Assembly (NCBI RefSeq): GCF_016508585.1
Contig: NZ_JADVOP010000023.1
Coordinates: 1 to 64,000 of the forward strand
DNA: 64,000 bases
From: Acinetobacter baumannii
GTDB taxonomy: Bacteria; Pseudomonadota; Gammaproteobacteria; Pseudomonadales; Moraxellaceae
Direction of reading: 5' to 3'
Shown here: in pieces, positions 23,871 through 27,646 of the stretch
Layout of the letters: the number at the start of each line of letters is the position of its first letter
Numbering within the stretch: the first letter of the stretch is position 1
Program-made: the position numbers and the translations under genes
The notes under the pieces: generated by a model
Databases searched by the model: none
The model's input: only the letters and a program-made list of their open reading frames with translations
Told to the model about the DNA's origin: nothing

Positions 23871-25139
23871 ATGCATATCATCATTATGGGCGCAGGTGTT
23901 ATTGGAACAACATCGGCTTATTATTTAAAACAAGCAGGTCATGACGTGACTGTAATTGACCGACAACCCAATGTAGCACTGGAAACAAGTTTCGCAAATG
24001 CAGGGCAGATTTCACCAGGATATGCCTCACCATGGGCTGCTCCAGGCATTCCTTTAAAAGCATTTAAATGGATGTTTCAGCCCCATTCCCCCCTTGCCAT
24101 TAAACTGACAGGAGATATGTATCAGTATCAATGGATGGTTCGTATGTTGGCTGAATGCAATATCAATCGCTATCAAATCAATAAAGAACGAATGGTGCGA
24201 ATTTCAGAATACAGTCGTGATTGTTTGGATGAGCTGCGTGCGGAAACGAAAATTCATTTTGATGAACGTCAGTTGGGAACCCTGCAACTGTTTCGTAAAC
24301 AACAACAGTTGGATGTTGCTGGCAAAGATACAGAAGTCTTAAAGCATGAGGGTGTACCATTTGAATTATTGGATAGAGCTGGTGTGATCAAAGCTGAACC
24401 CGCTTTGGCACATGCTACAGTAGACTTTGTCGGCGGCTTGCGTTTACCCAACGATCAGACTGGCGACTGTCAAAAATTTACGACAGAGTTGGCTGAACTT
24501 GCTGCACAGCAAGGTGTAAATTTCCTTTTCAATACTGTAATTGAAAAAATTGAAAAAGATTCTGATCGGATTACAGCCATTCAACTTAAGGATGGCAGTA
24601 CATTGAAAGGTGATGTCTATGTGATGGCCTTGGGTAGTTATAGCCACGAAATGTTAAAACAGTTGGATATTGATGCACCTGTATATCCATTAAAAGGCTA
24701 TTCGATCACCACCAAGATTATTGATCCTGCATTATCACCGATTTCCACAATCTTAGATGAATCTTATAAGATTGCTTTAACCCGTTTTGATGACCGTATT
24801 CGAGTGGGAGGAATGGCCGAAATTAATGGTTTTGACCGCTCTTTAAAATCAAGCAGAGAAGATACCTTATTGATGGTGCTCCAGCAATTATTCCCTAACG
24901 CCAGTGATATTACAGATGCCCATTTCTGGACGGGACTAAGACCTGCAACTCCTGATGGTACGCCGATTGTCGGTAAAACCAAATATCAAAACCTATATAC
25001 CAATACTGGACATGGCACATTGGGCTGGACCATGTCCTGTGGCTCTGCAAAACTGCTCTCCGATATTATTTCAGGAACGACACCACAAATTGAATATGAT
25101 GACTTGAACGTGTTTAGGTATGAAAGTAGCAATGCTTAA
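23871..25139 (+). CDS. dadA: D-amino acid dehydrogenase, DadA
   Basis: A 422-residue FAD enzyme of the DadA group. The N-terminal dinucleotide motif is [27 protein letters not shown], followed by [22 protein letters not shown], which is highly typical of DadA, and C-terminal [17 protein letters not shown]. DadA oxidises D-alanine and other D-amino acids to 2-oxo acids at the membrane and passes electrons to quinones. No alanine racemase gene (dadX) lies beside it. A second, more distant family member follows 1.1 kb downstream. Confidence 0.9.
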
Positions 25140-25450: not shown

Positions 25451-25939
25451 ATGAATGCGTTAAAAGTTTTACGTTTTGCTGTAGATGGTATTGCTGTAAT
25501 CGCAAATACTCAGAATGGTCAGATTAAACATTTATTAAATGATTTTGCAGCTTATGCCTATGAATCAGAATTTGAAAGAATTATGTATTTTTCCGCGACT
25601 GATTTATATGTAGAGTTAAAACTAGATGCGTCACATGTGCAATTGCTATTCAACTCGTGGACAGGTGAGACTTATACACAATGTAATATGAGTGTTGAAC
25701 TCAGTGAAGCATTGGTTTCTGAAAGTGGTGTCGCACTGATTTTAACTGAACGAGATGTTGACCAAACCCTTTGGCTTGAGCACTTATATGCTGAAAATAT
25801 GGCTGAATTAAATGTGGCATTATCTAAAATTGAGCAAATAGCACAATTAAAACAAAACAGTATTCAAGCTTATATTTTACGGTTCTTGACGGACGAGGAT
25901 AAACAGCAATTTTTAGCTGAGTTTGGTAAGACAGAATAA
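25451..25939 (+). CDS. Protein of unknown function
   Basis: A 162-residue soluble protein of mixed alpha/beta pattern with an acidic, helical C-terminal third (NVALSKIEQIAQLKQNSIQAYILRFLTDEDKQQF). No motif, signal peptide or membrane helix is evident. It lies between dadA and the glycine riboswitch on the same strand. I do not recognise the family; the reading frame is convincing for its length and codon use. Confidence 0.6.
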   Translation: MNALKVLRFAVDGIAVIANTQNGQIKHLLNDFAAYAYESEFERIMYFSATDLYVELKLDASHVQLLFNSWTGETYTQCNMSVELSEALVSESGVALILTERDVDQTLWLEHLYAENMAELNVALSKIEQIAQLKQNSIQAYILRFLTDEDKQQFLAEFGKTE

Positions 25940-26021
25940 TTTTTACCATTGATTACCGCAAAAGTGTATCTATTTTATTTAAAATGGCATATACATTGCT
26001 ATATAAAAGGAAAGATGATTG

Positions 26022-26091
26022 CAGGAGAGAAGTCTCTTGTAGACTCGCCGAAGGAGCAACGACCCCGGAAACTCTCAGGCAAAAGGACTGT
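26022..26091 (+). promoter_or_regulatory. Glycine riboswitch, first aptamer
   Basis: The first of two glycine aptamers. It shows the family landmarks in order: GGAGAGA, CGCCGAAGG, a variable hairpin and ACTCTCAGGCAAAAGGAC. The limits are approximate. It lies after the unknown gene at 25451 and before an FAD dehydrogenase gene. Confidence 0.93.
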
Positions 26092-26103
26092 AATTATCGT
26101 AAA

Positions 26104-26225
26104 ACCTCTGGAGAGAAGTCATTCTATTGAAAACAAAAAAGAAATGACTCACCGAAGGGGAAGGTAAAATCTAAATAGTTTAGATTCTTATCGAAGCTCT
26201 CAGGTACACATGACAGATGGGGCAT
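26104..26225 (+). promoter_or_regulatory. Glycine riboswitch, second aptamer
   Basis: The second aptamer repeats the landmarks GGAGAGA, CACCGAAGGGG, a hairpin (ATCTAAATAGTTTAGAT) and GCTCTCAGGTACACATGACAG. About 12 bases separate it from the first, the usual tandem spacing. It ends some 35 bases before the Shine-Dalgarno sequence of the downstream gene. Glycine is the expected ligand. Confidence 0.93.
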
Positions 26226-26233
26226 ACATTGAC

Positions 26234-26256
26234 AATGTAATGAGAAGAATTACATT
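26234..26256 (+). promoter_or_regulatory. Likely riboswitch expression-platform hairpin
   Basis: AATGTAAT and ATTACATT form a hairpin that ends four bases before AGGAG (26261-26265). There is no U-run, so transcription termination here is unlikely. An overlapping alternative, CATT-GAC-AATG (26227-26237), would exclude it. Control of ribosome access is an inference. Confidence 0.5.
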
Positions 26257-26272
26257 TCAAAGGAGTGTGTGT

Positions 26273-27517
26273 ATGTGTCATGTGGTTATTATTGGTTCGG
26301 GTATTACGGGTGTTACCTCAGCTTACGAACTTGCTCAATTAGGGTATCAAGTTACTGTTATTGATAAACATCTATTTCCGGCTATGGAAACGTCTTTTGC
26401 CAATGGCGGACAATTATCTGCATGTAATGCCGAAGTATGGAATCAAAAATCTACCGTGCTCAAAGGCATCAAATGGATGGCAAAAAAAGATGCACCGTTA
26501 TTGCTCAATCCTTCTTTTGACTTACATAAATATGCTTGGTTGGTGGAGTTCCTCGGTAATATCAAACACTATGAAGCCAATACCCAAGACACGGTCAGAA
26601 TGGCACTTTTAGCGCGCCAAAGGCTGTTTAGCATTGCTGAACAAGAAGGCATTGATTTTGATTTAGAAAAACGTGGAATTTTACATTTCTACCATTCTGA
26701 ATATGATTATAAAGTTGCAACAAGTGTCAACGCACTGTTATGCAAAGGTGGCTTAGAGCGTCATGCAGTGACCAATGAGGAAATCAAGGCCATAGAACCA
26801 AGTTTGACTGGCGAATATTACGGTGGTTTTTATTGTCCAGGCGATGCAACCGGAGATATTCATAAGTTCACAACAGGGCTGGCGAAAGCAACTGAAAAGT
26901 ATGGGGTAAAATATTTATTTGGAATGGAAGTGGTCAATGTAGAGCACACGTCCAAGGGGGTAAATATTCAATACCATCCAAGTGTAGAAAATATGGAAGG
27001 ACATTCGGCGACCATCGAGCAGTTAAGCGCTGATGCAGTGGTCATTTGTGGTGGCGTAGGAAGCTATCAGTTAGCCAATCAGTTAGGTGATCGAGTGAAT
27101 GTTTATCCTGTAAAAGGCTATTCCATCACGGTCCAGCTCAATGATGAAAAAAGTATTAATGGTGCACCTTGGGTCAGCTTGCTCGATGAAAGTGCGAAAA
27201 TTGTAACGTCTCGTTTAGGTGCGAATCGTCTACGTATTGCAGGCACAGCAGAATTTAACGGCTATAATCGTGATATTCGTTCTGACCGTATCCAGCCTTT
27301 AACGGATTGGGTCAATAAGAACTTTGATATATCAACCGAGCATTGTGTGCCATGGGCAGGTTTACGTCCAATGATGCCCAATATGATGCCTGTGGTAAAA
27401 CGAGGTAAGCGTGAACGTGTATTCTATAACACGGGACATGGACATTTAGGTTGGACCTTATCTGCTGCAACTGCCGTGATGATCAGTCAGGAGGTTGCAA
27501 GTTCACATCCGATCTAG
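26273..27517 (+). CDS. DadA-like FAD dehydrogenase under glycine riboswitch control
   Basis: A 414-residue FAD-dependent amino-acid dehydrogenase. It starts MCHVVIIGSGITGVTSAYELAQLGYQVTVID and has ETSFANGGQLSACNAEVW and a C-terminal GHGHLGWTLSAATAV, all parallel to DadA, but overall it is clearly diverged from the dadA product nearby. The frame opens at 26210 inside the riboswitch; the ATG at 26273 has AGGAG seven bases ahead and is the true start. Because its leader senses glycine, the substrate may be glycine itself or a closely tied D-amino acid, making this a glycine-detoxifying or -using dehydrogenase. That is inferred from the leader only. Confidence 0.85.
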   Translation: MCHVVIIGSGITGVTSAYELAQLGYQVTVIDKHLFPAMETSFANGGQLSACNAEVWNQKSTVLKGIKWMAKKDAPLLLNPSFDLHKYAWLVEFLGNIKHYEANTQDTVRMALLARQRLFSIAEQEGIDFDLEKRGILHFYHSEYDYKVATSVNALLCKGGLERHAVTNEEIKAIEPSLTGEYYGGFYCPGDATGDIHKFTTGLAKATEKYGVKYLFGMEVVNVEHTSKGVNIQYHPSVENMEGHSATIEQLSADAVVICGGVGSYQLANQLGDRVNVYPVKGYSITVQLNDEKSINGAPWVSLLDESAKIVTSRLGANRLRIAGTAEFNGYNRDIRSDRIQPLTDWVNKNFDISTEHCVPWAGLRPMMPNMMPVVKRGKRERVFYNTGHGHLGWTLSAATAVMISQEVASSHPI

Positions 27518-27594
27518 CTTTGGATCATGTTGTAGATACAAATGAATTAAATGTAAATGGCATTTTCTGGGTGATATGATCTGAATGTCAAAGT

Positions 27595-27616
27595 AAGAGG
27601 GGGATATGCCCCTCTT
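27595..27616. terminator. Bidirectional terminator, dehydrogenase/nitroreductase
   Basis: AAGAGGGG and CCCCTCTT pair in a compact GC-rich stem between two convergent genes. The T-run on the plus strand is broken. Confidence 0.65.
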
Positions 27617-27646
27617 AATCTTTATTGTCTAATCAACATTTCAGAC

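Follow-up and report, generated by a model that had tools for sequence, protein, structure and literature searches.

In SAR11, Tripp is said to have described in 2009 a glycine riboswitch on malate synthase. The locus studied here, in which a glycine riboswitch precedes an FAD dehydrogenase gene, resembles that arrangement in that glycine sensing would be coupled to the glyoxylate-to-malate step, and differs from it in the gene concerned: malate synthase itself is the one reported in SAR11, while the riboswitch studied here precedes the dehydrogenase, which malate synthase G follows in some lineages only. In the available portions of the literature, the reported targets of glycine riboswitches are gcv genes, transporters, serine genes, glyA, serC, COG4198 genes and malate synthase, and glcB is named as a target in the accessible part of PMC2211319. 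An FAD dehydrogenase differs from these known targets, being neither a gcv gene, a transporter nor a serine gene, and neither glyA nor malate synthase. According to the available sections of PMC6944388, aptamer 1 is the better conserved in switches linked to gcv and aptamer 2 in those linked to transporters. A. baumannii is listed as having a glycine riboswitch, with no gene named, in the accessible text of PMC9495176. Our literature search, which covered parts of the sources, returned no description joining a glycine riboswitch to PRK12409, the family to which the dehydrogenase belongs; the pair is possibly listed in RegPrecise or in Additional file 5 of PMC3766115, which holds twelve 'glycine metabolism' orthologs. 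The riboswitch class is already known, and the kind of target is new with respect to the covered sources, subject to such a listing in Additional file 5 or RegPrecise.

The locus lies in a 64,000-nucleotide stretch of an Acinetobacter baumannii contig (NZ_JADVOP010000023.1), hereafter the window. The first-pass annotation had claimed a tandem glycine riboswitch, and the RF00504 search confirmed it: both aptamers exceeded the gathering score of 32 bits (Table 1), aptamer 1 with an E value of 1.2e-13 in the window search, which listed this aptamer alone, and no match beyond these two was found in the whole genome at E <= 10. The start given there, 26022, was misplaced, since it falls ten bases into aptamer 1, which begins at 26012. 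Aptamer 2 has an enlarged arm, and its 3' core departs from the consensus. RNAalifold on 24 aligned Acinetobacter leaders recovered P1–P3 in both aptamers, and 12 of 40 pairs had both sides changed with pairing kept in at least one of the 24 leaders. In aptamer 2, P2 and the outer part of P3 covary, while four P1 pairs are invariant, so that P1 is uninformative. The tandem element is identified as firmly as sequence evidence allows, and it is predicted to bind glycine.

The reading frame ends at 27517, in agreement with the first-pass annotation. The ATG at 26273 is more likely to be the start than the ATG at 26210, because AAGGAG precedes it and it aligns with the first position of the family profile; the alternative ATG falls within aptamer 2. 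The A+U-rich hairpin in front of the ribosome binding site has a stem of 8 bp (26234–26241 with 26249–26256) and is absent from the RNAalifold consensus of the 24 leaders. On the 3' side, a terminator scan of 2 kb returned four patterns, three of them nested at 27594–27617, against a shuffle mean of 1.4, a result that alone is no proof of function; the terminator-like hairpin suggests a putative single-gene unit. Upstream, a 162-aa ORF (25451–25939) between this gene and a second dehydrogenase gene gave no Pfam or NCBIfam match at E <= 0.001.

Table 1. Features of the riboswitch–dehydrogenase locus, in window coordinates.
Feature	Position	Strand	Evidence
Glycine riboswitch aptamer 1	26012..26100	+	RF00504, 74.1 bits; P1 and P2 covary in 24 leaders
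Glycine riboswitch aptamer 2	26098..26226	+	RF00504, 47.6 bits (whole-genome search)
A+U-rich hairpin directly before the ribosome binding site	26234..26256	+	Sequence; present in the predicted fold
Ribosome binding site AAGGAG	26260..26265	+	Sequence; comparable purine-rich site in most aligned leaders
PRK12409-family FAD dehydrogenase gene (414 aa), putative glycine dehydrogenase	26273..27517	+	NF009074, 719.9 bits against a cut-off of 494; Pfam DAO
Terminator-like hairpin 3' of the gene	27594..27617	+	Pattern scan, 9 pairs

The gene product had been called DadA-like, a label that holds at the superfamily level (Pfam DAO) and fails below it: against the DadA model PRK00711, its second-best NCBIfam model, the protein scored 342.9 bits, under the cut-off of 383, whereas the NCBIfam scan placed it well inside NF009074 (PRK12409, 'D-amino acid dehydrogenase'; Table 1). 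The DadA that clears this cut-off of 383, with 675 bits, is the product of a separate, riboswitch-less gene (23871–25139), the second one upstream of the PRK12409 gene. The two proteins share the superfamily and a C-terminal GHGxLGWT motif, and they are 35% identical. The ThiO glycine oxidase model TIGR02352 scored 120.1 bits on the PRK12409 protein, far under its cut-off of 250.8, and 140.9 bits on DadA, so that PRK12409 is no nearer to ThiO than DadA is. Glycine oxidases such as ThiO have in common with it the DAO fold, the top structural rank described below and the reaction proposed here; ThiO differs in model score, and no thiamine gene was recognised beside PRK12409 among the listed window ORFs. 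An AlphaFold2 model of the protein (mean pLDDT 91.5, pTM 0.91) was compared with solved structures using Foldseek and VIA-align, and glycine oxidases ranked top (Z 41.8, rmsd 2.2, 346 aligned, 24% identity), with other DAO enzymes close behind, including sarcosine and iminodiacetate oxidases and dimethylglycine enzymes. For the window's DadA, used as a control and compared by sequence, the nearest solved structures were also glycine oxidases (6j38, 4ysh and 7cyx). The nearest solved structure was dropped as an argument for a glycine substrate since DadA matches glycine oxidases likewise; the modelled structure indicates the fold and not the substrate.

A draw of 149 Acinetobacter genomes was searched for both elements. 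Among the matches listed, a riboswitch match at E <= 1 was present in 128 genomes (127 over the cut-off), and PRK12409 was found at E <= 1e-160 in 126 genomes (130 genes). By coordinates, and among the matches listed, 125 of the 130 genes, spread over 122 of the 126 genomes, have a same-strand riboswitch 22–321 nt upstream. The five genes that have no riboswitch among these matches are those of G064, G001, G118 and G045 and one of the two copies in G139; the absence was re-examined by a separate aptamer search in the first four, and in G118 a degraded, sub-threshold aptamer of 27 bits persists. Riboswitches at other positions, again among the matches listed, precede gcvHPT (five genomes) or a broken PRK12409 gene (G127; 91% identity to the window protein over the first 47 residues), or are divergent elements (G139 and G120). 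Across 80 named loci with flanks of up to 4 kb, some shorter, PRK12409 had no conserved operon partner; the best neighbour counts were 7 for a nitroreductase, 6 for DadA and 5 for malate synthase G. The closest of the named loci is that of Acinetobacter guillouiae CIP 63.46 at 95% protein identity, the window's own and very near genomes possibly having been left out. The divergent glycine riboswitches of G139 and G120 (L191, 945–4409; L192, 8494–11916) lie beside the second PRK12409 copy and face a fumarylacetoacetate-hydrolase-family gene, an MFS transporter and an M20-type amidohydrolase. The divergent element may be what is left of a further PRK12409 copy; behind it, a decayed PRK12409 remnant is weakly matched in G139 (E 7e-6 and 3e-5, in two collinear stretches) and unsupported in G120 (E 11).

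Beyond Acinetobacter, 28 distinct genomes with PRK12409 were found in draws of 293 genomes from the order, 274 from the class and 299 from the phylum, the protein of G469 being under the family cut-off. A glycine riboswitch lies directly upstream in 25 of these 28 (order, 14/14; added by class, 4/6; added by phylum, 7/8). By our estimate, chance alone would put a riboswitch that occurs about once per genome in front of a given gene in roughly one of some thousands of genomes. The pairing, which the first-pass annotation took to be unusual, is instead the rule both in Acinetobacter and in the PRK12409 family. The exceptions are G469, G613 and G966, in whose fetched regions no glycine aptamer was found even at E <= 5. 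G613 and G469 are small genomes (1.2 and 0.9 Mb) with a divergent PRK12409-like gene (L166 and L167; 518 and 433 bits), set in a similar gene order in the two. In G966 (L174, 1625–4218), the riboswitch-less PRK12409 gene overlaps an upstream gene that by eye resembles an amino acid permease. In G661, where PRK12409 is split into two ORFs, the fetched region holds an nhaA-I riboswitch (L055, 145–208).

The glycine cleavage system is rare in the genus: GcvP was found in five of the 149 Acinetobacter genomes, and TIGR00461 gave 0 candidates in the window's genome. In those five genomes, the riboswitch precedes gcvH-gcvP-gcvT (gcvH and gcvT were named by NCBIfam in G091 and, in the remaining genomes, from the similarity of their N-termini), and PRK12409 is missing from four of them. 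The five gcv loci have flanking genes in common and may represent one event. An apparent exclusion between GcvP and PRK12409 in the genus (Fisher's test, p = 0.002) was set aside because the loci share their flanks and the genomes are related. Neither gene was found in 19 of the 149 genomes. Aptamer 1 of the G091 gcv leader is 88% identical to window aptamer 1, against 56, 52 and 75% identity to the riboswitches that precede gcvP in three genomes from other genera, the first two of these three figures being lowered by a long insert. A placement of gcv behind the riboswitch by rewiring within Acinetobacter would fit these sequences. Coexistence of the two systems is commoner outside Acinetobacter: of the 28 PRK12409 genomes there, 15 match GcvP, all but one of them over the cut-off (the match of G608 is split and below it), and PRK12409 is therefore no replacement for GcvP in those genomes that have both. 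Both listed aptamers lie at PRK12409 in the seven genomes of the order that carry the two systems. In G909 (L172), one strand carries gcvP as the upstream neighbour, then a glycine riboswitch, then PRK12409.

Malate synthase G consumes glyoxylate, joining it to acetyl-CoA. Four Acinetobacter genomes carry two PRK12409 copies (G034, G089, G120 and G139), and in all four one riboswitch-linked copy is followed on its strand, after 231–249 nt, by a malate synthase G gene. These four adjoining proteins are all over the TIGR01345 cut-off, two having also been checked by NCBIfam, and each genome has a second malate synthase G elsewhere. The four PRK12409 copies concerned, which include L151 (G139) and L152 (G120), probably share one origin; L107–L109, three of the five malate synthase G hits among the named loci, were excluded as linked, since all they hold of malate synthase is the end of a gene, some 3.6 kb upstream and separated by three ORFs. 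In the gap between the two genes, terminator-like matches (1/4) and promoter-like matches in the gene direction (2/4) were near the shuffle expectation, and co-transcription is likely as judged from these gaps. Outside the class, PRK12409 of G766 is followed after about 20 nt by the start of a broken malate synthase G gene. Among the 23 non-genus regions L153–L175, malate synthase G was found in one and gcvP in one, L163 standing outside the count since its gene is masked by an overlapping ORF. At the level of whole genomes, malate synthase G was present in the window's own, where it lies on another contig, and in 30 of the 32 PRK12409 genomes tested (the misses are G469 and G932); it was present in 2 of 14 control genomes, which are no background for related genomes without PRK12409.

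The first-pass annotation had predicted an oxidative route induced by glycine and acting on it or on an amino acid linked to it. This prediction is supported by the riboswitch, which stands at 125 of 130 PRK12409 genes in Acinetobacter and in 25 of the 28 genomes outside, by gcvHPT in place of PRK12409 behind it in five genomes and by malate synthase G as an adjoining gene in some lineages. Taken together, these results make it likely, on sequence grounds, that PRK12409 is a glycine-induced and probably quinone-linked glycine dehydrogenase behind a gcv-like tandem switch, and that it serves as a glycine outlet that replaces gcv in most Acinetobacter. Glycine would act on the tandem riboswitch, which would be of the catabolic, gcv-like kind, to turn on a single FAD dehydrogenase gene. 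The enzyme would oxidise glycine to an imine that hydrolyses to glyoxylate and ammonia, and malate synthase G would then condense glyoxylate with acetyl-CoA. Excess glycine would thereby be disposed of, and in most Acinetobacter the route would take the place of the glycine cleavage system. Enzymes of the DadA type pass electrons to quinone, and serine hydroxymethyltransferase can leave glycine in excess from one-carbon metabolism. We infer the substrate, the product, the acceptor, induction over repression and translational control. We also lean, with somewhat less assurance, towards a broader reading in which PRK12409 proteins in general are misnamed respiratory glycine dehydrogenases that form, with malate synthase G, a riboswitch-controlled glycine–glyoxylate–malate module across Pseudomonadota, which would have displaced gcv in nearly all Acinetobacter, the same type of riboswitch sitting on either disposal route. 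If so, a family now named D-amino acid dehydrogenase would gain a specific function, a single RNA sensor would serve two unrelated enzymes with the same job, and the disposal of glycine from one-carbon metabolism would be explained in Acinetobacter, a genus both environmental and clinical that is mostly without glycine decarboxylase.

PRK12409 might instead be a true D-amino acid dehydrogenase, acting for example on D-alanine or D-serine, with glycine a mere signal of peptidoglycan stress or amino acid surplus. The NCBIfam family name, the rank of DadA as second-best model and the shared GHGxLGWT motif all agree with such an activity. However, the genome already has its separate, riboswitch-less DadA, and a D-amino acid substrate accounts neither for gcvHPT behind the same riboswitch nor for the malate synthase G neighbour; we consider this explanation unlikely and keep glycine as the preferred substrate.

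The direction of switching was approached through the relative strength of the two aptamers. Aptamer 1 outscored aptamer 2 in all 14 PRK12409 genomes of the order, by a mean of 14.1 bits, and in the 24 Acinetobacter leaders the mean majority share of columns was 0.89 for aptamer 1 against 0.72 for aptamer 2. The switch thereby resembles gcv-linked tandem RF00504 elements, with two over-threshold aptamers of which the first is better conserved (available sections of PMC6944388), and this dominance of aptamer 1 favours, by analogy, an inducing, catabolic switch. A repressing switch, with glycine silencing the gene in the manner of certain transporter-linked glycine riboswitches, appears improbable. 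When P1 of aptamer 2 was forced in 77 leaders (the 80 named loci and the window, minus L095 and L145 with short upstream DNA and L099 and L106 with missing motifs), the accessibility of the start region fell in 22, as repression would have it, but rose in 26, including that of the window (0.39 to 0.53), and stayed within 0.02 in 29. The gcv-like dominance of aptamer 1 also speaks against repression, and if the enzyme is indeed a glycine-degrading one, its repression by glycine would serve no purpose. Also improbable is a substrate derived from glycine, such as sarcosine, dimethylglycine or iminodiacetate, with glycine or glyoxylate as the product. Sarcosine and iminodiacetate oxidases and dimethylglycine enzymes do figure among the structural relatives of the model, but a glycine-making enzyme would be induced by its own product, and no methylamine-catabolic partners were recognised around the non-genus genes when the first 40–50 residues of the listed neighbouring ORFs were inspected by eye.

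For an inducing switch on the proposed glycine dehydrogenase, transcription termination is disfavoured because the pattern scan found no terminator-like site between the aptamers and the gene. In the window, nine nucleotides of aptamer 2 (26207–26215) are perfectly complementary to codons 2–4 (26276–26284), a length reached in 22 of 2000 mononucleotide shuffles; by eye, the complement is missing from most leaders and kept only in close relatives. Sequestration of the start codon is not supported as a general translational switch, accessibility being mixed across the 77 leaders; in the window itself, the complement could serve as the switch element.

Four genomes with neither PRK12409 nor GcvP (G317, G358, G398 and G387; L176, L177, L178 and L179) carry a tandem glycine riboswitch before a PRK10578-like membrane protein. 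Three of the four proteins were scanned, all scoring under the cut-off of that model, and the fourth was matched by eye. In these four riboswitches, the score of aptamer 1 minus that of aptamer 2 averaged 2.6 bits and was positive in 3/4. The membrane protein behind them is perhaps a glycine transporter.
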